38,146 bases of DNA from Fragilaria crotonensis (lineage: Eukaryota; Bacillariophyta; Fragilariophyceae; Fragilariales; Fragilariaceae), in assembly GCA_022925895.1 (NCBI GenBank), contig JAKSYS010000606.1, positions 1 through 38,146 of the forward strand, written 5' to 3'. Below are positions 3,418 to 31,992 of this stretch, piece after piece. The notes beneath the pieces are model-generated. The model did no database searches, was not told where the DNA came from, and saw only the letters and a program-made list of their open reading frames with translations. Each line of letters begins with the position of its first letter. The first letter of the stretch is position 1. The position numbers and the translations under genes were made by a program.

Positions 3418-4685
3418 ATGGTTAGTTCGATGCGTCGTGTCGTCGTGACCGGCATGGGTGCCATAACTCCGCTGAAACACACTAACAAGCTCCTGGAAGT
3501 CGCTGGTTGCAAATGAATCGGGGTGACGACTCTCGAGGAAGCCCTCAGACATCAGTTCCTGAGTGACGAGAGCTTTTCTCGAAGTGGAGACTGCAGAGGC
3601 GTTGCCCTGTCATGTGGCCGCTCCCGTCAAGGAGTTAAACAGAATCCAGAACTGCAAGATTTGTTGAATTTGCCCTCAAGCAGGTGCTGAAGCAATGGCA
3701 CAAGCCGACTTGGAGAATTATCTCAATGAGACTGGCTACAACGACCGAGTCGGAGTTTGTGTTGGAAGTGGCATGTCGAGCGTCCGAGAAATTGTCGAAG
3801 CTGCGCGATGTGTGGACCACAACGGCCTTCGAAGATTGACGCCGCACTTCGTTCCGAGGTCTTGACCAATTCAGCAGCTGGGAGACTAAGTATGGAGTAT
3901 CACCTTCGAGGACCGAACCTCGCGCCGTCGACAGCATGCGCCGCAGGTGCTCACGCCATTGGGGACGCTATGAGGTGCATACAATTCGGCGATGCTGATG
4001 TTATGCTAGCAGGTGGTGCCGAGGCCTGTATCGATCCTCTCAGTATGGCTGGTTTTACTCGACTACGAGCACTTTCGTCAAACCCCGCCCGAACTCTGCC
4101 TCTAGGCCGTTTGATTCTGCACGTGATGGTTTTGTGATGGGAGAAGGTGCAGCAATTTTGATTCTGGAAGAATTAAACCATGCGCAACAACGTGGTGCTC
4201 ATATCTTTGCCGAACTGTGCGGTTATGGCAAGTGGAGATGCCCATCACATTACATCTCCAGACCCAACGGGTAGCGGTGCAATTCGTGCCATGACCATGG
4301 CCCTCCAAAAGCTGATATGCTACAAGATACGTCAACCGTCGACTACGTGAATGCGCACGCAACATCGACCCCAATTGGAGATGAGATTGAGGCCCGTGCC
4401 ATTAACTCCTTGTTTGGGTCGAATTTGTTAGTGAGTGGAACTAAGGGTGCAACAGGGCATCTACTTGGCGCTGCAGGAGCAGTGGAAGCCGCCTTTACCG
4501 TTCAGGCACTGTCCACTAAGGTGATTCCTCCGACACGGAACTTGGAAGTCATTAGCGAGTCTGAGAAAGCAATCTTTCAACATGTGACAGAAGCAATGCC
4601 GAAAGATGATATGGTCGTCGCGATGACAAATAGTTTCGGATTTGGAGGAACGAATGTGTCTCTCGTCTTCAGGGCATGGCGATGA
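3418..4685 (+). pseudogene. 3-oxoacyl-ACP synthase (OXSM/FabF type), broken by multiple frameshifts
   Basis: This is a condensing enzyme of type II fatty-acid synthesis, most like the mitochondrial OXSM/FabF group. It would join malonyl-ACP to a growing acyl-ACP. The start at 3418 or 3430 gives MRRVVVTGMGAITPL, the canonical KAS II N-terminus. Across frames follow VGVCVGSGM, then the active-site Cys in STACAAGAHAIGDA (about 3933-3975), [18 protein letters not shown], the first catalytic His in NAHATSTPIGDE (about 4351-4386), the second in GATGHLLGAAGAVEAAF (about 4447-4498), and the terminal NSFGFGGTN. All three catalytic residues survive, and the length (about 420 codons) is normal for the family. 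About eight small indels disrupt the frame, near 3473, 3521, 3575, 3650-3690, 3862, 4103, 4230 and 4310. The frame cannot be translated as given. No targeting presequence precedes the MRRVVVTG start. It is a decayed copy or poorly resolved sequence. Confidence 0.85.
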
Positions 4686-5885: not shown

Positions 5886-5974
5886 ATGGCCATCAACACA
5901 ACGATGCTGCTTTTGTCATTCAGCATCACACAGACGCAAGATACAGAGCCAACACCAAAAGATAAAGGCAAGAC

Positions 5975-7916
5975 TTGGACCGAACCTCAGGTACGTTCTC
6001 GCTTCCAGCACTTCGCGCCATAACAATGCCATGGAAGCTGACCTCTACATCCTTCAACATCAGATTCCTGCCAGTCGATCCCAGTCGTACTAACGATGAG
6101 ATTCACACGACGATCGAATTTTGTCCAGTCATGAGGACGATCGTAGATACTCCTCAGTTCCAGCGTCTTCGAGGGTTGTGTCAACTTGGAACAAGCGAGC
6201 ACACGTATATGAATGCCAATCATCGGCGCTTCGAGCACTCCATCGGGGTTGCGCATCTCGCCAAAAGAATGGTAGAGCGCATTAGAACCAGGCAGCCAAA
6301 GTTGAATATCACTGACAAAGACGTCCTTTGTGTCAAGTTGGCTGGGTTGTGTCACGACCTCGGACATGGTCCCTATTCGCATGTATTTGATAGCACCTTC
6401 CCAAATCGACTGGAGAAACATCTCAAGAGGAACCCAGAACTTTTGAAGTATGAAGGATTACCCGAAAAACCGCATGGATGGGAGCATGAAGACGGTTCTT
6501 GCATGATGATTGATGCCATGCTTGCCGGACTTGGTTTGGCGATTGATGAAGATAATCTCGATGAGCCTCTGAAACAAATCGGAGATGGCGTCGCTGCTTC
6601 GTCTTTTCGCGTCTACGATGCGCTTGATGTCAACGACAACGACTCGTCGCGTAAAACCCCGAACACCGACTTAGTCATGACATCTCGAGATTGGATCTTC
6701 ATAAAAGAAATGATTCTCGCCAAACCCCATTGGTATTCACCGCGACACCCACTGCCAGATGAATCGGGCTTTGTTGGTCGTCCTAAACGATATCAGGAGT
6801 TTTGTATGACATCGTTTCGAATCGACATTCAGGTTTGGATGTCGACAAGATTGACTACTTTGCAAGGGACCATCGACGTGCCTTCAGAGGCAGCGGTGAA
6901 ATTGATTTTAGGTTGATAGAAGAGGCGGTGGTTGCGTGGGGCCTTTGTCCTCGTCCAGACATGTGTTTCTGCTGCGACAAATACCCTCAACAGCACTTGA
7001 TGATTTGCTATCCAGAAAAGTGCGCCGGTGTGTATCATTCTTTCATCATCGCTTCAAACTACATTCCACCGTTTACACCCACAAGACAACACAAGCGTCA
7101 ACATTCATGATTGCAGATATCATGGCCTTGGCCGATCCATACTTTCGATTGCCGCCATTTGCTTTCGGACAACCTCTGCCTCTCAGTCGTGCCATGTGTG
7201 ACCCTCAAGTCTATGTGAGAATGCGAGATTCAATCATTGATTTGATTGAGTTCAATCCTGACCCTCGACTCAGGCCTGCACAGGACTTGATTCATCGATT
7301 GCGCAAACGTGATCTCTACAAGTGTGTAGCAGCACGAAAGATTGATTTGGACAATGAATTGGATGCTATCCTGTGGGCGAAGTCGGAGGAAGACATAGAG
7401 CAGGAGCTCCTTCAAGTCCGTGGCATTTACGAGAACGGTGTCGGCCTGGTAAGAAATGACGTTCTCGTGGAACGGAGAAAGATTCATATGGGCGCGAAAG
7501 ACTGCAATCCGCTGCTCCTCATGCGATTTCTACCGAAACGAGACCTGCGTTTGCTTGTCAATCCGTTCGATGACCTACCAGAAGCGCTTGAGGCCTCACC
7601 GGCCGAGTACGCCGCGCACCTTCCCAAGGTCTACCAAGAAAACAGCATACGTATCTTTTGCCGCGGTTCGGAAACGAAGTGCCAACTGCTTTGTCATGTT
7701 TTCGAGGCGTGGGTGTCAGAGTGTGAGCAGCAGTACACCGGAATGATTCATACCTTCGACGAGCAGCCTTTTGCTGCAGTCCAAATCGATGATGCTGAAG
7801 CATTGACGCAGGAAGAACCAGACCCAATGCTCAGTCCTCAACCGTTGTCAGAAACATGCAGCATACTAGTCTATCCACTGGCAGCGCGCGCGAGCAGGCT
7901 GAGTCTACGATACTAA
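5975..7916 (+). CDS. SAMHD1-like HD-domain dNTP triphosphohydrolase, two frameshifts
   Basis: This protein probably splits dNTPs into deoxynucleoside and triphosphate, as SAMHD1 does. Similarity starts at NDEIHTTIEFCP (about 6094) and runs through DTPQFQRLRGLCQLG. The metal ligands are His in NHRRFEHSIG (about 6220-6250), the HD pair in LCHDLGHGPYSH (about 6348-6383) and Asp in DVDKIDYFARD (about 6838-6870). Downstream are HHRFKLHSTVYTHK, IADIMALADPYFRL and a C-terminal region with PAEYAAHLPKVYQENSIRIF. No SAM domain is visible. The frame changes twice, at 6799-6803 and at 7040-7044; restoring one T to a short T-run repairs each. The N-terminus is uncertain: ATGs at 5882 or 5886, and a possible intron with donor at about 5991, would give a longer first exon. 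The length of about 640 codons is close to the family norm. The function is inferred from strong motif conservation. Confidence 0.85.
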
Positions 7917-18014: not shown

Positions 18015-19380
18015 TTGGACTGGGAGTTTCATTGCAGACACACGCTGGGTTATCTCTCGACATAGTATACGGTTGTGGATACGCTGTGCGCCAACGAAGG
18101 GCGTCTTTTCCAGTTGCTGGTGGAGAGTCCTATTGAGCGGTACAATTGGTGCATCTCTTTAAGTATTGTTAGAGCTCGATTCAACTCGCATTGCCCATTC
18201 CATTATGCTTTGCTTGGATGCGGCACTACAATTGACTGCCACATGCAGTGCTCTATGGTTAATTGTTCATCACGGTGTTCGGTCTTCGTTGTTGACTAAT
18301 TCGAGGGAAACCATACCTCATTCGCCATGTATTGGACAACGGATGGCACCAACGATGCCAGCGTTCGCGACGGGATGTCCTGCAACCTTGTCCTCGTCGT
18401 TGGCAACGTTGATCACTCCATGTTACTCAGTGCCGACTTCGCTTACCCGTAGCATCGGCCGGTGTCAAAACGGGATAGCAGCACTAGACTGTACCACGGT
18501 ATGCATACGGGGTTTTCTATCCACTCGTAGCTCGTTGTAGACTGTGGAGTGTGGAGGGCACTACCGGTAGTATCGTACCGTGCATACCACGTGCTACTTC
18601 ACACTGGTACACCGAGTACTGCGTAGAGGTACACCTTTTCTACAGTATCATACCTCGTAGAATTTTGCATCTACTACAAGTATGGATACTCGATACTGCA
18701 CCGTAACTGTACTGGTACCTTCGGTCATCTGACAGACGACCCTGTTCTTGCATCATGACTCGATGATCAGTACGACTACAGGTGCTATGTACCTACTACA
18801 TGGCACGGTAGACTATTTGCTACTTATCGCATCTACAGGCGGAATCCGGTTTCCGCTGTAAACCAGTACTAGTACTGGAGTACTCGAGTACGATGAATAG
18901 TACTAATGTACCATTTGTACTGTACGCTTTAGAAAATGAATATTTACTGTACATTGTAAGTACTGTATGTTACATTTTCCAGTACTTCCAGTAGTACTGT
19001 CACTTGTTAGTTGTTACTGTAGTAATCATTTCTTTAGTACGCACTGTGAGCGATTTACAGTATACTCTACTACCGGTAGGAGTAGGAAACATCTACTGTA
19101 TACGTCGTTCTACCAGGTACGATAATAGTACTCTTTGTACTTCGTAGACGACCTTGCCAGTAGAAAGCTTCTGGACCGCGCAAATACCAAGAAAATGGAG
19201 TTTTCGGTGACACTCGGAAGGATTGGGCAGTAGAAATCATACCAGAACGGAAACGAGAGGCGTACGAACGACCAGCCCACACACATACAGCAGCAGTGGA
19301 CGGCGGTTCCCACATGCTGGCGGTGCTATCGCTCTTGACCAATACAGCTCTACACGCCCCTCCCCCGTTCCTTTGCCTTC
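18015..19380. other. Intergenic region, strongly GTAC-rich in its second half
   Basis: About 1.37 kb. The part 18015-18540 has gene-like composition, with an open plus frame at 18166-18540 that I do not recognise. From about 18540 to 19130 there are dense AGTACT, GTACTGTA and CCGGTA motifs and no gene. The last 200 bp would hold the promoter of the BET gene. Confidence 0.55.
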
Positions 19381-22300
19381 ATGCATGATCCGTCAGACGA
19401 CACACAAGATGAAGAGGACCGGACTACAACATTAGCAGCGAACGACGCAAAAGACGTGCACGAAAACGGAACGAACGAGGACAAAGGCGGCGCCATGGAC
19501 ACGGTCGATTTTTGTACGACTGAACCCAGTGCTATAGCGGCGAATGCCGATGGCAAGCCTCAAGCCATGGATGACGATGATAATGATGACGAAATGAATA
19601 ATGATGATAGTAATGACTACGATGATGAAATTCCAGATGACATGGAGGACAATCCACACGACAAAACAAATGAAGGGGCTAAAAATAAGAACGCAACAAA
19701 AACGACGGAGCCAACAAGAACGAATACCGCAGGCTCCGTAAAAATTTCCAACGACACAACAACCACCGTTATTGCCAAATCTGGGAACGGATCCAATGGT
19801 CGCCACGGCAACATCACTAGTAGCAGTGCTGGACCAATAAGTGCTGCTCCTCCTCCTCCACCAGTGCTTAAGGGGACACTATCGTTCAATGTAGAAACGA
19901 GGCGCCACATGATTCGTGGCATGTGGAACTATGAAAATTCTTCCACCTTTCCTCCACAACGATTTGAGCTGCTCCGGAACTTGGATAAGGACGAGGATCC
20001 CACAGTCCTCCCGAGCGATGGAGAATTTCATGGATCCTTCAGTCTAGCTTATTTCCACACAACCTCCAAAGGCAAGCAGAAAGAGCGCAGCAAAGTTATT
20101 CCAGAGAGTGGTGTCAAAATCACATTCACGCCGATTGAGGGGAGCGAGGGAGAATTTGACGTTGATGGCGAAGGAACTAATCAGTTTGGAATTTTCAATA
20201 TTAATGGGAAGGCCACACCAAGCGAGCATGAGGGTGATCCAACCTTTGACATCGTCCTGAGAAAGCGCTACAAGCCTTCAAATCTGCCAGCACCAGTAGC
20301 AGCATTGGTAACCGGGGATTTGAAGAAGAAAAACGACCGAGCAATTTCATTGGAGACGGAAGTGTGGCAGGTATGGAATCCGTGGTGGAGTCTGAGGCAG
20401 GGCCTCTTCCTCCTCCGTCAGAGTCCTTTCCGTCCCGTGTGGTTTGTCTGCGCGGTAAACTCATGCGCGATCAGTCGGATGAACTTGGTGTTAATGAGGG
20501 GATCTACAGAATCAACGGGATGTGGTCGTCTGGATTGGATCTGATTCTGGCTGATCCGCAGAATGTTCGTGGGCTTTGCAATCGCTTCGAGTATGAACAC
20601 AAGAGTTCCCAAACCAGCAATGTCTTCCCCGTTTCGGGTAGATACTCTGGATGGTTCGATCTCACAAGTGAAGACGGCTCTAGAACTCGCATCAATGAGA
20701 AAGATATTACGCTAAAGTTCCGAAAAAATAACGCTGGCTATCACAACGTGGAGGGGAAAGGGTCAAACGCTTTTGGAAAATATAGCATCAGTGGCACTCT
20801 GACGCTTGACAACGTTATCACAATCTTCCGACACTTTCAAGCGCCCAAGAAGAAAGCGAAGGATCCACCCGCAAAACCGGACGGAACGACCACTAGTTCG
20901 TCAATCGGTGCTCCAATAGCGGTGAAGGATGTAGCGCCACCGCCTGACATGAAGTTGAAACTTGAAGACGTTGAAGTCCCTGGTGGTGAGCAAGTGAATG
21001 GAAATCTGCCATCCGTTCCACCTCCACCGCATGGCACGTATTCGGCCGTCTCACGAGGAATCATGCGGCTCAACGAAGACGGTTCACATACATGTTCCGG
21101 AAAATGGGCCATGACACGAGAACACTTCAACAACGGAACCGTGAGCAATTTTTCCTTCCGTCTGGAGGCCCATTTCGCTGCACAGGGAGCAGCAGCAATG
21201 AAGAAAGCCAACGGAGAAACCCGGACGACGACGAACCCGCTGGAGTGTCTCTCTTAGGTGCTCCTCCAGGATCCTTGACATTCCCGGTCGATTCTGCCCT
21301 CTACAAGGGCTCGTTTCAGATGAAGCGGGGAGCCACCAAGTATACATCGGTGATCGATCAACAGATAGTTCTGAAGTTTCGAAAGAATTCCGAGGGGTCA
21401 TTCAATGTTCATGGGACAGGGATCAATTCGATTGGAGTTTTCACTTTGGTCGGAAAATTAATACTTAGCGGAAAGAGCAGTGGACACGTTGAACTTTATC
21501 GAATGTATCCCTTGCCGCCAGCAGCACCTGGTCATCCTGGAGCGGCAGTTGTGCCTACCAAGATACAGTCAACTCCATCGTTGCCGCCACCACCGTCACC
21601 CCCACAAAAGATTAGTGGCGACACGGCGGCTCAAGCGTCGTCTTCTGCGATCCCGTCCGGTCCTGCTCCGCCGAGACAGGGACTGCTTAGGCGAGAATCG
21701 TCAAGACTCGTCAAGCTTCCTTCCCGTTTAGAGGATGATGATCCAGATGCTCAATTGGGCAGGCTCTTGGAAAAATGCGGTCAGCTTCTCAAGTTCATCA
21801 GCGAGAAAGACGTCGCGAGCGGTGCTTTCTTTGCGAACCCTGTTGACCCCGTTGCGCTCGGCCTCCCAACGTACTATCAGATTATCAGCGAACCTATGGA
21901 TCTGGGTACGATCCAAAGCAAACTTGACTCCGACGAGATAGAAACACCCGAAGAGTTTGGAAGGCTTGTTCGCCTCGTCTTCGAGAACGCCATGACCTTC
22001 AATGTGGAGCCAACTCACATCGTTCACCAGTCGGCAAGGCAGCTTTTAATACTTTTCAACCAGAAATTCCGTGATGTTGAACGAATGGCCGAAAACATCC
22101 GACGACAGCACAAGCTGCCGGATACAGTTGTCAAAACTGATCCTATGGGTGTAGGAAAGCAATTGAGTAAATCAAAGAAGCGAAAGGGCGGATCGGATGA
22201 ATTGATGAGCGCAAAGAGAAGGCGACTCTTAGAGGCTCAGACAATGGCCGCGGAGAACGCAAATGCCATGAGTGCATTGGTGGCTGCTGCACCACAAGGA

Positions 22301-23590
22301 ATTACCACTGGTGGCAGCGTGAGCCGAGCTGAATTTAACGCAATGCTTCAGATGATCCAAAAGCTCCAGGCACAAGTGGTACAGACTTACACCGCACTGG
22401 CAGAAATGTCTTCCGACGCTATAGAAGAGCCTCCTGCGCTTACGCAAACGGCCCCTCCACACTCAGTCGAGATGCAAGCCTACGTGCCTTCACAACAGGA
22501 GGAAAATCATGCTCCAGTTCAAGAAAAGAAAAAGGCAGTACCGAAGCGTAAGGAGCCCTCTCCTTTGGATGATGAGAAGTCACTTACCTTTGAGGAACAA
22601 CAAGCGATGACAGAGGCGATCAATCGGCTTCCGCGTGATAAGCTTCCTGGCGTTGTCAAAATTATTCGTGAATCGGCGAACTTAGGTGACGATGACACAA
22701 TTGAACTGGATGTCGATCAGCTTGATACGGTCACGCAACGCAAGCTGCAGCGCTTTGTAATGAAGGTAAGTATGTTCCGGAGAGTGCTAATGATCTTTCT
22801 ATTTGAACGTCTCCCTAACTTTCTGATTGTCATCCAACAGATCGTGAAGCCACCAAGAAAAAAGCCCAAGCTTGTTCCCAAGAAGAATCCGCCAGCGAAA
22901 AAGCCAGAAGCTGTGCCTATGCCAGCTGTCCCGAAGAAGCCTCAGCATACGCCGTCCTCAAAACCGCCTGAACATGGATTCTTTGCCTTTGGTTCGAAAG
23001 GTGGCGAAAGCGACTCAGATTCCGAAGATGGCGAGATCCCGCAAACAGAGGTTGCATCGTCCGAACGTAACAAGGATGACGACTTCAATCTAGGCGACGC
23101 ACATGATGACGACGATGACAACGACGACATGGGCAATAACGAATTTGGAACCAACTGGATTATGGCCACATCGGAACCTGCTGGAGCTGCGGCTGCTAAG
23201 GATGCAGACGATGACGATTGGGGCGCTGCACGAGAGCAAGCCGAAGTCGCCAAGGCCCGCGATGCGGAGCGAAAGGCCCGGGAAGAGAAGGTGCTTGCGG
23301 AAGCCGAACTCGCGAAGAGCCAACGACTGGCTGACGCTGCCGCCCGCGGGGAGGAGGCTCGTGTGCAACGCGATTTAAGAGCAGCGGAGGAGGCCCGTCT
23401 TCGAGAAGAGAAGGAGAAGCTCGCCTCGGAGAGGAAGCAGGCCGCTCGTGATGCCGAGCGAGCCAAGCTTCAGTCTGTGGAACGAACTGTGAATCTTGAC
23501 GAACAACGTGAAATCATGAAGCAATTTGAAACAAACTTTATGGGTGATGAGGCGGATGGTGCCAGTCCTTCGTCCGACTATGGGTTTTAG
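19381..23590 (+). CDS. BET-family bromodomain protein with three N-terminal repeat modules
   Basis: This is a chromatin reader of the BET class with an unusual N-terminus. The order is: an acidic, Asn/Asp/Thr-rich leader (about residues 1-150); three copies of an approximately 130-residue module ending in V.GxGxN..G.F.i.G.l (ends near 20270, 20840 and 21500); a Pro-rich linker; one bromodomain (about 21745-22095, with LPTYYQIISEPMDLGTI and NAMTFN, whose Asn would bind acetyl-lysine); a Met/Gln helix; an extra-terminal (NET) domain (about 22585-22770, TFEEQQAMTEAINRLPRDKL); a basic K/P stretch (KPPRKKPK); acidic tracts; and a long Ala/Glu/Arg coiled coil. The usual WPF shelf is replaced by AFF in GAFFANPVD. 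A 75-nt intron at 22766-22840 interrupts the end of the NET domain. Two frame breaks, near 20352 and 21216-21222, are each repaired by one added base. The restored length is about 1,378 residues. The 3' end converges with the BCAT gene. Confidence 0.85.
22766..22840 (+). other. In-frame 75-nt intron in the BET gene
   Basis: GTAAGT donor and CCAACAG acceptor. It is divisible by three and has no stop, so the frame reads through it. Splicing joins LQRFVMK to IVKPPRKKPK, which matches the NET-domain end followed by the basic tail of BET proteins, so this is an intron and not coding sequence. Confidence 0.85.
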
Positions 23591-23869: not shown

Positions 23870-25131
23870 TTAATACACCTTAAAATTCCATCCATACACA
23901 TCTTCTTCTTCTCCATTTTGAATGGCACGCACTCGATCGTACAGTCGTCTTGTCACGGCTCCAATTTCCTTCGAAAATTGGTATCGTTTGGCATTGCCAT
24001 CAGCATCGAATCGCGTGATGCTGCCCACTGGTGTCATGACGACCGCGGTTCCAACAGCCAAGACTTCTTCAAAGGCTTCCAGCTCCTCCACGGGGATGTC
24101 ACGTGCCTCAACGGTGAGGCCCTCATCCGCGGCAAGGGTCATCAAGCTCTTGTTTGTGATGGATGGCAAGACGGAACCTGATTTGGGAGTGACGAACTTG
24201 TTCTTTTTGATATCAATACCAACAAAGTTACTGGTTGAGAATTCTTCAATAGTGGTTTGGGTCGCAGCATCGAGGTACAAACCCACAGGAAAACCTTTCT
24301 TTTTGGCCAACATGTTGGGCAGCAAATCTGCCGCATAATTTCCTGCTAGTTTGACATTACCGACTCCTCTTGGCGCTGCGCGATCGTAATCATCAATAAT
24401 GATTGCATTCACAGGTTGTGAGAGACCTCCTTTATAATAATCACCAGCTGGAATGCATAAACAGATGAATGTGTATTCATCTGAGGGTTGTACGCCAATG
24501 CGAGGGCCAGATCCAAACAGGAGTGGACGAATGTAAAGAGAGCCTCCCGAACCGTACGGCGGTACGTACTCGATGTTGTCTCTGACAAGATCATTGACGG
24601 CTTGCAAGAAACGATCCATTGGTAGGCATTCCATGAGAGTGCGATCGCAGCTAGTCTTCATGCGTTTGGCGTTCTCGTCGGGTCGGAAGACGTTCACAGA
24701 GCCATCGGCGTGAGCAAAGGCTTTCAGACCTTCGAAGCAGGATTGGCCATAATGAAGGGCAGTTGCTCCGATGTGAATTTTAACGTACGGGTCCTAACGA
24801 ATGATGACATCGTATCAATAAGGTGAGGTTCATCGAATTTGAATTTGTGATAGTTGGTGCAAAACAAACTCACCGCCACAAGTTCCGTCGGGCCCCATTC
24901 CCCATTTTTGTATACAATGCGTACGTGGCTCTTAGTAGGACGGAATTCAAATTCAAGTTCTTCCCACGGTACATCCAGTTGTGCAGTACCTGGCTTTCCC
25001 AGTGCTGTATTCGCAGCTGTCATACTCATTTGCATCCATGATGATCGTGATGGAGCAGTCGTAGTTGCAGGGAGAGGTGAAAAGGCCGCAGCCGTCGTTG
25101 CCCACAATAGTGAAAGAGTCGCAATCTTCAT
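23870..25131 (-). CDS. Plastid-targeted branched-chain amino acid aminotransferase
   Basis: A PLP-dependent class IV aminotransferase that interconverts Leu, Ile and Val with their 2-oxo acids, using glutamate/2-oxoglutarate. Exon 1 (25131-24874) and exon 2 (24793-23870) are joined in phase 0 across an 80-nt intron, giving 393 residues with no breaks. MKIATLSLLWATTAAAF-SP is a signal peptide followed by an ASAFAP-like site (AAAFSP), the diatom signature for import into the complex plastid. The mature part has HIGATALHYGQSCFEGLKAF, typical of BCATs, and the PLP lysine in GNVKLAGNYAADLLP. The segment EEFSTSNFVGI stands where many BCATs have a GTMN motif. The C-terminal VGTAVVMTPVGSI is also family-typical. 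The gene is convergent with the BET gene. The right end of the gene is about 310 bp from the MULE insertion, so the transposon lies in its upstream region. Confidence 0.93.
24794..24873 (-). other. Intron of the BCAT gene
   Basis: An 80-nt GT-AG intron (donor GTGAGT, acceptor CGTTAG). Splicing joins PTELVA to DPYVKIHIGATALHYG in phase 0, continuous with the conserved BCAT N-terminal region. Confidence 0.9.
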
Positions 25132-25443: not shown

Positions 25444-25452
25444 TATTTATAA
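25444..25452 (+). repeat. Left target-site duplication of the MULE
   Basis: TATTTATAA, identical to 29844-29852 and directly outside the left inverted repeat. Confidence 0.93.
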
Positions 25453-26003
25453 GGGGAAATTGCTATCGTACCTGTTATCTATTCCAAAAATTGAAAACAC
25501 CTGTTATCGGCTATAATATACCCCCTCAAATGACAATAATAGCATGCTAACTTTTACTATATCAAAAACACCTATTATCTTTTTGCCATGTTTTCAATAG
25601 CACCATTTATGTTTTACACAACTTGCAATATCACCTATTACAATTTGCAATAACACCTGTTTCGATTATGCCAATTTCAACTCCACGCAAATTATCGTAC
25701 CCCATAACGTAGAATGCCAACACATTGACACACTTTCAAACGTAAGGATCTCATGCATTGCTTAGCATTATCATGTGCTTCTCACTGATGAAATAAGCTG
25801 TGTTATTCCATTGACAATGCTTGGTGTGATGGTGTGAGGAAGTATGTGGTCATCTTGTGTGCTCTTGGGTACATTCTGGTTATTGTCATTTGTCTTCAGA
25901 TTTCTTGGGCTTGAGATGGGTCAGTAACAAAAATCGCTTGTATACAGTGGTGTACAAATGTACAACGACGATCTTTGGACACCAACACAACACAATCTCA
26001 TCA
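25453..26003 (+). repeat. Left terminal inverted repeat of the MULE
   Basis: About 551 bp, nearly identical in reverse complement to 29290-29843. Similarity starts at GGGGAAATTG and fades at AATCTCATCA. Its outer 210 bp hold six related sites of the form CACC(T)NTTAT, listed in the findings. Confidence 0.92.
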
Positions 26004-26389
26004 TGAGTAGCTGTTCTTCATGATCAAGAGCAACACCCAACCCCATATACATGCAACTTGAACTACTTTAAGAGCTACTTTTTCTTGTTTTGTTGTCAGC
26101 AACCTCTGTAAGACCACATTTGGTTTCATTCCACATGTTCGGCGATTGTGTCCACTCTCTATTGGGAACACAATTGTGACTTTGATGGGTCAGAGTTCAC
26201 TCCGTCTGCAGTATCTTTCACTTTTGGTCTACCAGGTTGTCTCTTGATTCTTTGTGGAGGAGGCTTTGTTTTCCGTCATAAGCAATTGTGTCTACCACAA
26301 CTGGAACAATGTTCGGTTCATAAAGAAGCTGCAGTGCTTGTACTTGTAAAAGTCTGGTATGCCATCGTGTGATTCAGACAACAGACTTG

Positions 26390-27840
26390 TGAATTCCATT
26401 CTATCTCAATTTTCGAAAACATGCCATGAAGTGACGGCACGGAATACAATATCTTGCCAGAAGCCACAAGTACACCACTTGTCCCTTGTATGTGTGTTGC
26501 ACGATCCCCGAACTCATTTCTTGTGTTTGAGGTGTTACCTTATGCCCTCCTCCACTTGCCAACTCGTACACATCAAAGCCGGCCGAGCATCCCTTTCATC
26601 TCTAATCCTTGCCAGACATTGCTTAACAACATTATCTGGATTCTTGTCAACATACTTCATTCTATTTCTTGAAATGCGACTGCCCATGATGTCAATAATC
26701 TTCTTGATTGCTTTGAGCCATGGCATGCTGCAGGTGCAAGGAACATGCTATTGGCAGATGCTTGTGTTTGATGTAATGATTCCATACAGGCGGAAGTCTC
26801 ATGTTCTCATCCAGCCAAGATGTATTCTTCCACAATCCATCAATGCTTTCTATGTAGGTTGTCACTGGTCTTAGCTTCCGTACTTGATCAATGAAGAACT
26901 TCTCCTGCCGAGTAGAGAATGTGCGTGCAATCCGAAATACATATGCCGCACATTGTACAAACCTCTGCTACATTGGCTAATGTGCTTGACACACAGCACG
27001 TTTGTGTTGTCTGGGAACACATCATCAGGGCTTGTTGAAGTCCCTTGTCACGATCTGAGATAAAGATGAAAGGATTCAGCTCAGTTGTCGCATCCCTTTC
27101 ACACAAAGAAGGCAAGCCTGTTTCAGCTTTGTCAGAAGTGTGTCCATGTTTCTCGGTCTTCATTTCCGAAGACAGCAGGAAGCCAATCGGATATACCTCG
27201 TTAGCTCCTGACAATACAGAAGCAATGTAAAGAGTGCCAACATGGTCAGCACATTTCATATGCGCCGCATCGAGTGAGATCACGGGCGCGTACAAACTTA
27301 AGGATGCCATCCATAAATCCCGGAATCACCATAGCCTGTAGTAATTCATGATCCTCATTTGTCTCCCACTCGATGACTGAAGCCGCATTGCCTTCAGTAG
27401 CTGTTGCAGGTATGGAATCATTTGCTGGTAGCCTTCTTTTTGCTCTGTGCTTTGACATTAGTGAGTCTTTGTGGAGGCCACGGTAGGCAGCAAAGTAAGA
27501 CACAGAATCTCCTTCAAGATCGTTTTCATCATCACATCTCGGGCAGTTGGTATTCCAACCTTCGTTTGCAGCCTCTTCAATGTATTCCTGAACTTTTCAG
27601 CGCGCACTGTTTCCACTGTCGCCCATCACTTGCTTTGAGTGGACGACGGACCGTTGTGTGACGCAACACAGATTGCTTCTTGATGACATACTTGCCATCT
27701 ATTCGTCTCCTCCCAACATGAACCTTGAACACACAGTTGACGTGCTCAGCGCATTTGTAGACCCGGAACTTGTCCACTTCACTTCGACGAATCGCAACCT
27801 GACATCCCGACTGCTTCTGGTATTGCTCCATGACTGAGTC
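26390..27840 (-). pseudogene. Degenerate MULE transposase with DDE residues and SWIM zinc finger
   Basis: Pieces of a Mutator-type transposase follow in order on the minus strand. At about 27831-27577 is a FAR1/FLYWCH-like DNA-binding region (KFRVYKCAEHVNCVFKVHVG, then RHTTVRRPLK). The MULE catalytic domain has the first Asp in PVISLDAAHMKCADHVGTLY (about 27285-27230), and the second in FIFISDRDKGLQQAL (about 27068-27030), 72 residues later. A likely catalytic Glu is in VTTYIESIDGLW (about 26868-26834). A SWIM finger reads YCIPCRHFMACF (about 26440-26405). All are signatures of the MULE family. The reading frame shifts several times and has stops, so no single open frame is left. Introns could explain some breaks but I could not place them. 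A full-length relative elsewhere in the genome would be needed to mobilise this copy. Confidence 0.85.
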
Positions 27841-28309
27841 ACATCAGCAAGGCTTTTGAAGGACTCAATTTTGAGTTCCTTCACTAGTTTGGAAAATACA
27901 ACATCTTCAACATGCTCTTTGCGTCGGTGTTCATTTTGTTAGGTGCTTGTAGTGGTTGGCATCCTTGTTGTTCCTGACCTTCACTTGGCATGCCCTGAGT
28001 CTGTCTTCTTGGCTTGCACTAGTACAATATTGCTACCGCCAGCCTTCTTCTTTTCAGTATCGTTCTTATCGTTCTTCTCCTCTCCTTCCTCAAATCTCAA
28101 TATCTTGCCTCACACTTCTTCTGGCACGGCTTGCCGGTGAGATCATTTCCATGAGAAGCTTAAGCATGCCAGGCGACTGTGTTGCATCCTTTTTGCTGAC
28201 TCTTTAGTTGCTATTACCATCCACTATACCCTCAATGTTACATGAAGGCCGGATGACTCTGCAACATTAGCAGACACATATTGTTCTTTCCGTCATGATG
28301 ACCTCAACT

Positions 28310-29180
28310 TCAGTAGTTGGGACTCGGCATTGCTGAGTCCTCTGCATTTTGATACTCCAAGAACCACAATGCTGCCATCATCGGGAGTCGTCCATGGTGA
28401 TCAATGCGGAAGCATCCTCTGATGACACTGCAAGAGAAGTGGATACTGGATAAGTTTTCAACAGCGGCAAGGTGAGTTGCCAAATCAGAACTATGTTTTG
28501 TCATATGTTCTTGTTTGGTTTCATTGGTGATTGGAATACTGTCGATGATGTGCAGAACCACACCAATCGAAAAGAGGCCACAATCAATCAGATTACCTTG
28601 AGTCGGACATGGGCAGTGCTTGACCTGAGTTTGAGGGCGACCTATCTTAAACTTATCATCACAGACAAAGTAAAGCAATTTGTGAAATTCAGCAAGAAAT
28701 GCAAATATGACTTGCTGCACCTCGTGTCCTCGTAGGTGCACTGCAAAATCCATCAGTCATGCACTCAATACCCAATAGAATTCACAACCATGCTTTCAGT
28801 CAACTCAATCACGGACAAAGAAATGTGACTTATGAACCATTGGCACAACAAGCTTTGATCCTGGCAAGGGTGGTGGCTTTGTAGCTCTTCAGGCTCGTTC
28901 GAATGATTTCAAGGCTCTTTCGCGACGTTGATTCGAGCACCAGTTCATTTGCCTTCTCAATGAAGAAAGTTGTTGCTAATCCACCAATGTACAATGGTGG
29001 TGCGGATATATCTTCATCCTGAGAGGAAGCAACGGTGGTGTGGGAGATGGAGCTCCTCTTGGATCAAGTAGTCCAACAGGTTTGTACTCAAATACTTATT
29101 CTCCTGCAGCCTGCATCTTCTGCATGTGCCGAGAGAGAGAATAGAGAACCTTGGGCCCTGGAAAAAGCTCTTCTCAACTG
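28310..29180 (-). pseudogene. ULP1-like (C48) cysteine peptidase carried by the MULE, degenerate
   Basis: The C-terminal part is an open frame of 147 residues (28753-28310). It contains CPCPTQGNLIDCGLFSIGVV, matching the Q-x-N-x-x-D-C-G-x-F active-site block of SUMO proteases of the ULP1/SENP class, with the catalytic Cys at about 28580-28582 and the oxyanion Gln six residues before. Upstream pieces in other frames read KYLSTNLLDYLIQ (about 29100-29050), similar to the WLnD.ii entry motif, then APPLYIGGLATTFFI (about 29010-28960), and a HKSHFFV segment near 28830 that may hold the catalytic His. ULP1-like genes ride on Mutator elements in plants, where they are often called Kaonashi-type MULEs. 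Here the peptidase lies 5' of the transposase on the same strand. The frame is broken, so activity is unlikely in this copy. Confidence 0.75.
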
Positions 29181-29289
29181 CTGCTCTTCTTGGCTTCTCT
29201 TTGGTGGCATAATGAGACAAGAAATCAGTGTCAGGGACTGTCAAAAAGGAAGGGGAGGGAGAGGGTGATGCTGTTGATGATGAAATGGC

Positions 29290-29843
29290 TGATGAGATTG
29301 TGTTGTGTTGGTGTCATAAAGATCGTCGTTGTACATTTGTACACCACTGTATACGAGCGATTTTTGTTACTGACCCATCTCAAGCCCAGAAATCTGAAGG
29401 CATATGACAATGCGACCAGAATGTACCCAAGAGCACACAAGATGACCACATACTTCCTCACACCATCACACCAAGCATTGTCAATGGAATAACACAGCTT
29501 ATTTCATCAGTGAGAAGCACATGATAATGCTAAGCAATGCGTGAGATCCTTACGTTTGAAAGTGTGTCAATGTGTTGGCATTCTACGTTATGGGGTACGA
29601 TAATTTTGCGTGGAGTTGAAATTGGCATAATCGAAACAGGTGTTATTGCAAATTGTAACAGGTGATATTGCAAGTTGTGTATAACATAAATGGTGCTATT
29701 GAAAAAATGGCAAAAAGATAATAGGTGTTTTTGATATAGTAAAAGTTAGCATGCTATTATTGTCATTTGAGGGGGTATATTATAGCCGATAACAGGTGTT
29801 TTCAATTTTTGGAATAGATAACAGGTACAATAGCAATTTCCCC
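29290..29843 (-). repeat. Right terminal inverted repeat of the MULE
   Basis: About 554 bp, reverse complement of 25453-26003 with few differences (small indels and substitutions only). Ends in TTTCCCC at 29843. Confidence 0.92.
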
Positions 29844-29852: not shown

Positions 29853-30276
29853 TTCATCGAAAATCGAAAATACTATGAACATACCAGTATGGTCCCTACT
29901 GCACCCTGTTTTGTTTGCTCGATCTCACTTGTACCGACGTCAGACAGGCGGGCATCCACCGATGGCAAGCTCCACTGTCGTATCCGGCGGAAATTCCAGG
30001 TATGTACTTTTGTACCTTGTACCTGTACTGTACCAGTACGAGTTGGCATTTGGCATCCACGTGTTGAAGATCTTTGACATCCTCGGTCTTGCGTGTTGAT
30101 GGATTCATCCGTGGTCGTTTTTCTGTTTCTTGGCGGCCATATCGGCAATTGTCACAACAAGAAGCCAACACCAGTCAACAACTGATAGGTGTGGGGAAGG
30201 TCGAGGTGTTAGGTCATTCATCAAACCTTACCGAAGAAGCAAGTTCGGTCGGTCATCCTCAGTGTTGATAAAAAGA
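29853..30276 (+). promoter_or_regulatory. Upstream region of the MFSD5-like gene
   Basis: About 420 bp between the MULE and the transporter start, likely promoter and 5' UTR. A GTAC-rich patch lies at about 30000-30045. Open frames here lie upstream of the natural signal peptide and are not supported as coding. No specific element is identified. Confidence 0.4.
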
Positions 30277-31992
30277 ATGAGGCTCACTTGCGTAGTAACG
30301 AGCACTACCGTTGCAATGCTTTGCTCGCAGGCAGTCTCGGCCTTTGCATCCCATTCGGCTAGTGCATTGCGGCCACCACTTAAACTTCACCACAAGCCAA
30401 CGGGTATCCGTGTTGTGGAACAAAAGAATGGTCTCACTATGATGATGGCCTTGCCTCGGGGAGGATCGGCTAACCTCGTGTCTCTTCTTAACTCCAAGAT
30501 AGCTGCGGCCACCAACACCCCATCGAACCTCTTTAATACAGCGCTGGTGACTCTGGCACTCACCACTGCGGCTTTCAAAATCATCCAGAGATCGTCGCAG
30601 AAAAAATCCTCCACTGACGCCGAAAAGCCCGTCACCAAACCCAGTAGCATCACTTCGCTTCAAATGCGATACCTTTCAGTTTTTTGGTTAATTCGATGTG
30701 CCGACTGGTTGCAAGGACCATACTTTTATGAAGTCTACGCCTCCAAAGTTTTTGGTGGCGTCCAGGCATCCATGAGCCTCGTCAGCAAACTGTTTTTGAC
30801 AGGCTTTGCGTCGACTGCGCTCTTCGGGCCACTCGTCGGACGGGCGGCCGATACCTACGGACGCAAGCGAGGGACCCTGGCCTTTTGTCTCATTTATGCG
30901 GTTGGAGCTGCCAGCACCAAGTCGCCCCTCCTATCTATCTTGCTATTGGGACGCATTTTTTCGGGAGTTGGGACAAGTCTCCTATTCAGTGCACCGGAGT
31001 CATGGCTAGTGGGTGAATCGCAAAAAGGAGGTGATGATCCCGATGGAAAGTATTTGGGTGAAACCTTTGGCATGGTACGTTTGGGAACTCCTATTGTTTC
31101 ATCTCGACTACTTTCTTTTTCAAGCAGAACTCAAACATCACATTGTTCCTGGTGATAGGCGTATTCTGGAGATGCCATAGTTGCCATTCTTGCTGGCCAA
31201 TTCGCCGGTGCTGCTGCGGGCGCTCGCGGACCCACTGGTCCCTTCGAGCTGTCTACTGTATTTTTGGCCCTAGGCGGTGTACTCGCCACCTTGCTTTGGA
31301 AGGAGAACGTTGCCGATTCAGCGGGCGGTTCGGATGGAGACAAGAAACCGTCGATTCGTGATGCCATTGATGTCGTTACTGCAGACCCAAAAATCATGCT
31401 GGTTGGTGCCGTCCAATCCTTGTTCGAAGCTGCCATGTACATTTTCGTGTTGCAGTGGCCGCCTGCCATCTCCAGCGCAGTTCAGACTGTCTTCGGTGCG
31501 AGTGCGGTGACTCCGTACGGAACAGTCTTTTCATGCTTCATGGCCTGCTGCCTCCTGGGATCTACACTCTTTGGTCAATTTGCCAAAATGGGTGTGCCCA
31601 CGGAAACCTTTACAACTGGGATGTTGGCTCTCGCCACCATCGCCATGGGTGGATCTACAATCGCCGCCTCTTCCAGCGCCGTTTCGTTGTGGACCATTGT
31701 AGCCGGCTTCTTCGCCTTTGAATCATGCGTTGGCATGTACTTTCCTTCAATCGGGACTCTGCGCAGCAAGTATGTTCCGGATTCTCACCGCGGTGTCATT
31801 ATGAATCTGTTTGGGATTCCACTCAATGCGCTTGTTGTGAGCGTGTTTCTGTCGATGAAACGATTGGGCCTCACGGGTGCCCTGGGAATTTCGACAGGGG
31901 CTCTTGGGGTTGCGACACTGTGTATGATTGCCCTGCAGCGATTGACGAGTTCTCCGAAAGCCGTGACGGTGGCGGTAGTAACTCCTGTGTAG
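30277..31992 (+). CDS. MFSD5-like molybdate-anion transporter with plastid presequence
   Basis: A major-facilitator transporter of the MFSD5 group, whose plant and algal members (MOT2 type) move molybdate. Exons 30277-31074 and 31159-31992 are joined in phase 0 across an 84-nt intron, giving 543 residues with no break. The ATG at 30277 opens MRLTCVVTSTTVAMLCSQ, a signal peptide followed by AVSAFAS, an ASAFAP-like cleavage site that suggests a plastid membrane location. The core begins at about residue 130. RCADWLQGPYFYEVYASKVF and ASTALFGPLVGRAADTYGRK (the MFS loop 2-3 signature) match MFSD5 closely, as do FSAPESWLVGE, AVQSLFEAAMYIFVLQWPPA and CVGMYFPSIGTLRSKYVP. About twelve hydrophobic segments are visible. 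The substrate and plastid location are inferred. An in-frame ATG-less extension upstream to 30130 is open but lies before the signal peptide. Confidence 0.88.
31075..31158 (+). other. Intron of the MFSD5-like gene
   Basis: An 84-nt GT-AG intron (donor GTACGT, acceptor GTGATAG). It joins GETFGM to AYSGDAIVAILAGQF in phase 0, continuing the transporter frame. Confidence 0.88.

Follow-up and report, generated by a model that had tools for sequence, protein, structure and literature searches.

An N-terminal C48 peptidase domain in the transposase of a Mutator-like element lineage of the diatom Fragilaria crotonensis

The window, that is the whole stretch of 38,146 nucleotides that was analysed, is contig C566 of an assembly of 62.1 Mb in 881 contigs and was found to hold a dead copy of a Mutator-like element (MULE). 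The transposase of the element and of its related families (type I) is one protein, which contains an N-terminal C48 peptidase domain followed by a MuDR-type DNA-binding region and the MULE (DDE) core. It is considered somewhat probable that this protease is targeted to the ends of the element and would strip SUMO-type modifiers there, aiding transposition or easing silencing in cis. The protease fused to the N-terminus of a MULE transposase in a diatom, together with a derived core-less carrier, appears to be a new form of the known MULE-ULP1 association.

Anatomy of the window element and of the type I families

The window element was found to contain terminal inverted repeats (TIRs) of about 550 bp, the arms of which are 97.3% identical over 556 columns, and the ACCTRTT boxes of the left TIR number 5 per 560 bp against a shuffled mean of 0.13 (Table 1). 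The target-site duplications (TSDs) of MULEs are about 8-11 bp long, most often 9 bp. An exact 9-bp TSD was found at the window copy and also at L003, L004, L005, L006, L007, L008 and L016; no TSD was found at L009, L010, L011, L018 and L027, among which L009, L011 and L018 reach a contig end. Among the features of MULE membership, the long TIRs and the 9-bp TSD are present in the window itself and the DDE domain (PF10551) was recognised through the relatives, whereas the SWIM/CCHC finger C-terminal of the core is present in the relatives and left in the window as broken remains only. The copies L003, L007 and L008 of the window family (C62, C71 and C298) contain an identical 9-bp TSD, TACATATAA, and because of this common TSD they may be copies of one insertion (by duplication or as haplotypes) rather than separate jumps.

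Table 1. Features of the MULE copy in the window (positions in the 38,146-nucleotide stretch)
Feature	Position	Strand	Basis
Left TSD TATTTATAA, 9 bp	25444..25452	.	exact 9-bp match on both sides
Whole MULE copy, 4391 bp	25453..29843	- (coding strand)	boundary and copy comparison
Left TIR, starts GGGGAAATTGCT, with five ACCTRTT boxes	25453..26003	+	arm alignment
GRPK motif and CCHC knuckle (GHNRRTC) remains, C-terminal, two frames	26133..26245	-	translations by eye; compared with the L015 C-terminus
MULE catalytic core remains, three pieces	26695..27596	-	Pfam MULE and own profile
Transposase DNA-binding region	27607..27840	-	matches the type II C48-DBD protein (45% identity, E 7.4e-17)
148-aa frame holding the C48 half with Gln and Cys	28313..28756	-	Pfam E 0.12; own C48 profile of the element family, 99 bits
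QGNLIDCGLF, oxyanion Gln and catalytic Cys	28571..28600	-	Q and C invariant in 10/10 alignment rows (A1)
Broken C48 domain, approximate full extent	28409..29165	-	limits estimated from matches
Right TIR	29290..29843	-	arm alignment
Right TSD TATTTATAA	29844..29852	.	exact 9-bp match on both sides

The C48 domain of the window copy was found to be scattered over several frames, with HFFV, which holds the catalytic His, in the frame 28888-28808, the Asp region in the frame 28781-28692 and the Gln-Cys part elsewhere. The estimated extent of the domain nearly agrees with the 28310-29180 of the preliminary description, within which QGNLIDCGLF also lies. Its longest piece matched positions 153-206 of the 217-position Peptidase_C48 profile at E 0.12 and 12.6 bits (cut-off 20.7), and the Pfam MULE match at about 26981-27283 reached E 0.0043 and 17.9 bits against a cut-off of 27.6, the MULE pieces scoring 104.6, 63.8 and 60.2 bits with the own profile. 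Both domains fall below the Pfam cut-offs because the window copy is broken. The copy on C875 (L004), which shares 95% identity with the window element along the copy length, contains one frame of 858 aa with C48 at 29.5 bits and MULE at 38 bits, both over the cut-off. The preliminary description had read QGNLIDCGLF as a ULP1/C48 active-site block lying inside the element upstream of the transposase; the two domains in the L004 frame confirm the block, and in the window the frame 28756-28313(-) lies 5′ of the MULE frame 27325-26891(-) within 25453-29843. Long copies with 90-95% identity were found on C62, C875, C285, C230, C71, C298, C329, C461, C54 and C16, and a C48 match was present in 10 of the 10 long copies covering the stretch, several of them with stops or frame breaks. 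The shorter copies on C823 and C797 (which end before the C48 frame) and on C807 and C840 (which touch its edge only) are uninformative on C48.

Single frames in which C48 and MULE both exceed the Pfam cut-offs were found, besides L004, in L015 (1042 aa), L016 (968 aa), L017 (997 aa) and L020 (843 aa). The C48 domain (PF02902) scored 29.5-35.3 bits against the cut-off of 20.7 in L004, L015, L016, L017, L020 and L025. The window piece alone falls short of it, so that a scan confined to the window would have refuted the preliminary description by its own HMM test. The MULE match of L016 reached 44.8 bits. L015 was found to contain C48 at residues 115-245, a DBD_Tnp_Mut-like region at 410-469 (below the cut-off), MULE at 604-711 and SWIM at 906-930, followed by a GRPK stretch and CSICGKRGHNRRSC. 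The same order of C48 and then MULE was found in L016, L017 and L020. The SWIM match was over the cut-off in L015 and L016, the DBD_Tnp_Mut (PF03108-like) match was below it in L015, L016 and L017, and a CCHC knuckle was recognised by eye in L015, L016 and L025, the most complete type I relatives thus adding a SWIM finger and a CCHC knuckle to the three common parts. A long, variable linker rich in acidic residues follows the type I C48. The preliminary description had presented the protease as something carried by the MULE; a diatom MULE with tight linkage is indeed present, but the peptidase is an N-terminal domain of the transposase and not a separate cargo gene.

The type I TIRs measured about 490-560 bp in the families where they were found (window, C49, C149 and C540). 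The terminal end GGGGAAATT is common to the window family, C49 and C149 and was present at one end of L015, L029, L017 and L020; it was not found in L014, L019, L021, L022 and L023, the ends of which may differ or fall outside the stretch examined. One copy of the L015 family, L049 (C40:67100-69600), was found to contain C48 joined to the C-terminal knuckle in a core-less frame of 351 aa, a deletion distinct from that of type II described below.

The window element is flanked by a class IV aminotransferase gene on one side (frame 23870-24793) and by an MFS_5 transporter gene on the other (frame 30100-31155). A bromodomain and BET gene, that is a chromatin reader, is present at 19339-23590 (+), a few kb from the element, and its frame 20990-23590 matched PF00439 (E 4e-15) and PF17035 (E 1e-17). 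The window also contains a frame with a ketoacyl synthase C-terminus at 4275-4685 and an HD-domain frame at 5966-7916 (+; PF01966, E 1.2e-10), which a second long frame overlaps.

Linkage, conservation and class of the C48 domain

The genome-wide Pfam search gave at least 44 C48 places and at least 108 MULE places, both counts being lower bounds. A MULE was present within 4 kb of C48 at 31 of the 44 Pfam places, where about 0.66 would be expected at random scatter, and at 48 of 69 places (about 1.03 expected) in the union with the window-protein search, a set that is biased to element C48s by the inclusion of that search. Only two linked arrangements were found, C48 lying 5′ on the same strand in 42 of the 48 cases and 3′ in convergent orientation in the other 6. 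The 21 unlinked places include the window itself (since its MULE piece is too weak for the genome MULE search), C16 at a contig end, pieces of elements such as those on C193, C317 and C129, and the host-like genes on C460, C52, C15 and C493. Two 'solo' C48s were considered as domesticated genes and rejected, as the open piece that follows the one on C317 contains the type I DNA-binding region and the one on C193 is an internally deleted type II copy. In the search for viral carriers, the viral-contig pattern search gave no match, and none of 100 pattern matches from a further search was confirmed.

No C48 was found within 4 kb at 60 of the 108 MULE places, so that the protease is not required for MULE transposition as such. 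As many MULEs have no detectable C48, the link is confined to one transposase lineage and one derived case.

In the A1 alignment the catalytic His, Asp, Gln and Cys were found to be invariant in 10 of 10 rows. Among the fragment rows (score at least 40, several per locus) His was present in 41/45, Asp in 46/48, Gln in 51/52 and Cys in 51/52. Between families pS was 0.67-0.92, which is saturated, and amino-acid identity was 25-61% in C48 and 48-66% in the type I DDE core. Purifying selection on C48 between families, and with it long-term constraint, is clear, and as the catalytic residues are near-invariant despite the saturated synonymous sites, the protease is an old, selected part of the type I transposase. 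The old association put forward in the preliminary description holds to this extent, within this genome.

Within families the mean dN/dS of C48 was 0.70 in the window family (21 pairs), 0.66 in L015 (21 pairs), 0.24 in L021 (21 pairs), 0.33 in L020 (3 pairs), 0.58 in C330 (3 pairs) and 0.88 in type II (15 pairs). The corresponding means of the DDE core were 0.71 (3 pairs), 0.26 (21 pairs), 0.17 (10 pairs), 0.15 (1 pair), 1.34 (1 pair) and 0.85 (3 pairs). With C48 means of 0.24-0.88, many present copies look relaxed or dead and drifting. The L015 and L021 families were found to be sisters in the C48 tree (42 rows with score at least 60 and profile span at least 110, of which 37 in the unrooted tree) and in the DDE tree (36 rows, scoring 140 or more with a span of 150 or more, including 4 of the 60 C48-free MULE loci), as is expected if the C48 and DDE domains move together.

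The A1 profile matched chains of SENP1 (best E 3.8e-7), SENP2, SENP7 and Ulp1 among the solved structures, followed by weak matches to SENP8 chains (E 0.18 and 0.28), and the single type I C48 of L015 gave no significant match to solved structures (best E 0.21). The catalytic His is followed by Phe in 43 of 45 rows, whereas SENP1 chains and the host-like C460 gene contain HW at this place. Trp in that position (HW) is typical of the SENP/Ulp1 deSUMOylase subgroup. The element C48s lack this subgroup feature, and since they contain HF where SENP1 and C460 contain HW, their substrate may differ from SUMO. The element C48 is accordingly filed as C48-like, and a SUMO-type substrate is plausible given the structure matches and the Rad60-SLD (SUMO-like) matches, which the genome contains at no fewer than 12 places (best E 1.1e-15).

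In the rooted C48 tree (15 rows and 4 host-like rows) the host-like C48s were placed apart from the element C48s with support 85/90 and long branches. A recent capture from the genome's own SENP1-like gene (C460/C52) was rejected, as C460 and C52 are distant in this tree. The genes L032 and L035 on these two contigs are near-identical SENP1-like host genes and are perhaps haplotype copies of one gene.

The second C48 carrier (type II)

On C137, C313, C579 and C20 the C48 gene was found to lie on the 3′ side of a different MULE transposase in convergent orientation, and C91 contains the same convergent arrangement as judged from match lists alone. C346 belongs to the same C48 group and is an internally deleted copy. 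The transposases on C20 and C346 were found to contain MULE and ZSWIM1-3 RNaseH-like matches. By the terminal inverted repeat (GGATCCGATTAACTGTCACC..., 36 bp exact in C137) the element extends over 42755-51778 on C137 and 8676-17226 on C20; no TSD was found at the type II ends, the flanks being read by eye. Identity between the type II transposase and the type I cores is 15-19%, and in the DDE tree the type II transposase joins four C48-free MULEs with support 100/100; the type II C48 is 29-43% identical to type I C48s, as type I C48s are among themselves.

A 31-bp tandem array lies beside the 5′ end of the type II gene, where AATAACACC occurs 12 times in 461 bp against a shuffled mean of 0.005; this motif is absent from the rest of the element. 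A tandem array of about 100 bp was also present ahead of the right TIR, with 7.1 copies in L062 (C137) and 3.1 copies in L063 (C20). Among the copies examined, none contained the full-length type II gene as a single frame, and each of the four longer copies read contains a frameshift. The genes on C137 and C313 are open through C48 and shifted in the linker, that on C20 has 502 aa with the N-terminus out of frame, and that on C579 is split. As the copies on C137, C313, C579 and C20 share about 99% of their DNA sequence, the age since capture is not readable from them.

The type II protein is collinear with the type I protein and was found to contain C48, the DNA-binding region and the pre-core region followed directly by the GRPK stretch and the CCHC knuckle, without the DDE core and SWIM, the frame continuing across the gap. 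In DNA two stretches of the gene were aligned with the type I element on C149, one of 1662 columns (58%, E 9e-61) and one at the C-terminal end (68%, E 1e-18), about 1.3 kb of core-coding DNA being skipped, and residues 18-448 of the protein are 45% identical to C330. The 31-bp array aligned with the window element TIR at a score of 55 (best of 300 shuffles 31) and with the C149 TIR at 48 against 27 shuffled; with the C49 TIR no alignment above shuffles was found (21 against 28). From the collinearity, the DNA and protein matches and the array-TIR alignment, a type I gene that had lost an internal part and carried TIR-like repeats would have become the second gene of another MULE. The type II C48 gene thus seems to derive from the fused transposase through loss of the catalytic core, as judged from architecture and collinearity and not from a tree, and the donor may be an unsampled family.

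Nesting of the type II C48 inside type I by tree was not shown, as type I forming a single clade was not rejected (p-AU 0.247) when the tree was rooted with 4 host-like C48s. The AU test of 34 rows against 8 (p 3.35e-5) included the type I-like L051 and L033 and the type II L037, and gives no answer on nesting because its row sets were mixed; nor does the 37-row tree, which is unrooted. A simple nested insertion was rejected, as C137 lacks GGGGAAATT and its matches to the window TIR, one of which covers TIR positions 17-49, lie solely 5′ of the gene.

It is a possible, if doubtful, reading that the second MULE lineage captured the core-less C48, DNA-binding and CCHC gene with its TIR-like repeats, and that the product would act as a stand-alone, DNA-targeted deconjugase countering silencing of the element. 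If true, a KIU/VANC-like system would have been re-invented independently of plants out of transposase parts. Type II is a natural deletion experiment, in which the protease, the DNA-binding region and the knuckle were kept, the core was lost and a different transposase became the carrier.

Proposed role of the protease and comparison with known systems

The favoured reading builds on the anatomy, the linkage, the near-invariant catalytic residues and the purifying selection between families. As read from the anatomy, the DNA-binding region would carry the protease to the repeated boxes in the TIRs of its own element, where the protease would strip SUMO-type modifiers at the ends from the transposase itself, from repair factors or from silencing factors, and this removal would favour transposition or ease silencing in cis. 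That a protease inside the transposase persisted through long divergence speaks for deconjugation being important to the element itself, and compact single-protein elements permit a direct test of active-site mutation.

The N-terminal position of C48 in one long frame, ahead of the variable acidic linker, would also suit a peptidase that cuts its own polyprotein and frees the transposase from the N-terminal part without any host modifier, and Ulp1-like proteases are described as N-terminal in the single proteins of the retrotransposons NeSL and Utopia-1_TSP (PMC4640811). However, the linker contains no conserved cleavage-like motif (by eye only), and in type II, which keeps C48 and the DNA-binding region without the core, there is nothing to release. 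Self-processing is therefore held to be quite unlikely, and since type II keeps the protease and the DNA-binding part without the cutting core, a local regulatory role is favoured over polyprotein processing. The identity of the modifier bears on another alternative, in which the protease would act on NEDD8 or ubiquitin and mainly stabilise the transposase or alter repair rather than affect SUMO-based silencing. The HF at the active site, the weak SENP8 matches and the description of plant MULE-borne ULPs as remote from deSUMOylases, with SUMO an unlikely substrate (PMC6117577), point in this direction; the best structure matches are nevertheless SENP1 and SENP2, at a similarity too low for specificity to be read, and this alternative is rated unlikely.

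The broken state of the window copy and of many others, together with the frequent capture of gene pieces by MULEs (PMC13317346, PMC2528002), would fit a captured host fragment travelling as a functionless passenger by transduplication, as in Pack-MULEs. Against it, open frames and active-site residues are kept across families with saturated synonymous sites, and the element C48s stand apart from the host-like C48s in the rooted tree; the passenger was rejected as the main reading on the between-family selection figures and is regarded as very improbable.

The premise of the preliminary description that ULP1 domains occur on plant MULEs agrees with the literature, in which MULE-borne ULP1 is described from Arabidopsis, melon, rice and grapevine in both orientations (PMC2528002), ULP1-bearing plant MULEs having been reported in 2006-2007 (PMC13317346, PMC2836005). 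The role of the protease in them is described as unknown in the text of PMC13317346 that treats them, and KIU-bearing VANDALs are linked there to silencing loss. PMC2836005 mentions Ulp1 in Mutators from hydra, lancelet and maize, and its authors, writing on Ginger, proposed a role of the protease in repair after transposition.

The plant KI-MULE/KIU (Kaonashi) elements and the ULP1-MULEs of melon, rice and grapevine resemble the diatom elements in combining transposase and C48 in one element, in direct and reverse orientations (PMC2528002, PMC13317346). KI-MULEs are described as non-TIR with ULP reverse to mudrA, whereas the diatom type I contains TIRs of about 500 bp in the families in which they were found and C48 N-terminal in the transposase, KI-MULE/KIU and diatom elements being compared here by description. 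The plant VANDAL/VANC system contains a second, DNA-binding MULE protein, in some cases with Ulp1, and tandem repeats in non-coding parts (PMC10398659, PMC13317346). Compared by layout, type II is similar to this system and to the KI-MULEs, as its gene for C48 and DNA binding is reverse to the transposase, and it also contains the 31-bp array beside that gene; in contrast to VANC, the diatom protein seems to derive from the transposase of another transposon minus the DDE core.

A protease of ubiquitin/SUMO type is likewise joined to the transposase in the MuDRs of hydra and lancelet and in Ginger1 (Ulp1 or OTU), but in Ginger1 it lies at the C-terminus of another DDE transposase (PMC2836005). 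The oomycete CryptonS and CryptonF also place C48 on mobile elements of a stramenopile, but these are tyrosine recombinase elements and not DDE MULEs, and the C48 of CryptonS is an additional protein (PMC3212892). MULE-Diatoms (group 37 in the eukaryote-wide MULE survey by Dupeyron et al. 2019) is a diatom MULE with SWIM (PMC6446971), for which the table of that paper gives TIRs of 123-124 bp, 'No TSD and not indicated' and no other motif, the comparison again being by description; the terms 'Ulp', 'protease', 'peptidase' and 'C48' have zero occurrences in its main text. Among the literature matches listed, which come from outside subscription papers and Repbase Reports, none was seen to describe a diatom MULE fused to C48, and a Repbase entry may exist.

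The genome was found to contain silicon transporters (PF03842, best E 4e-193), which are a diatom marker. Multi-domain silicon transporters are known from other diatoms. At G000:C97:29749-33762 three silicon-transporter domains were present in one open frame of 1456 aa.
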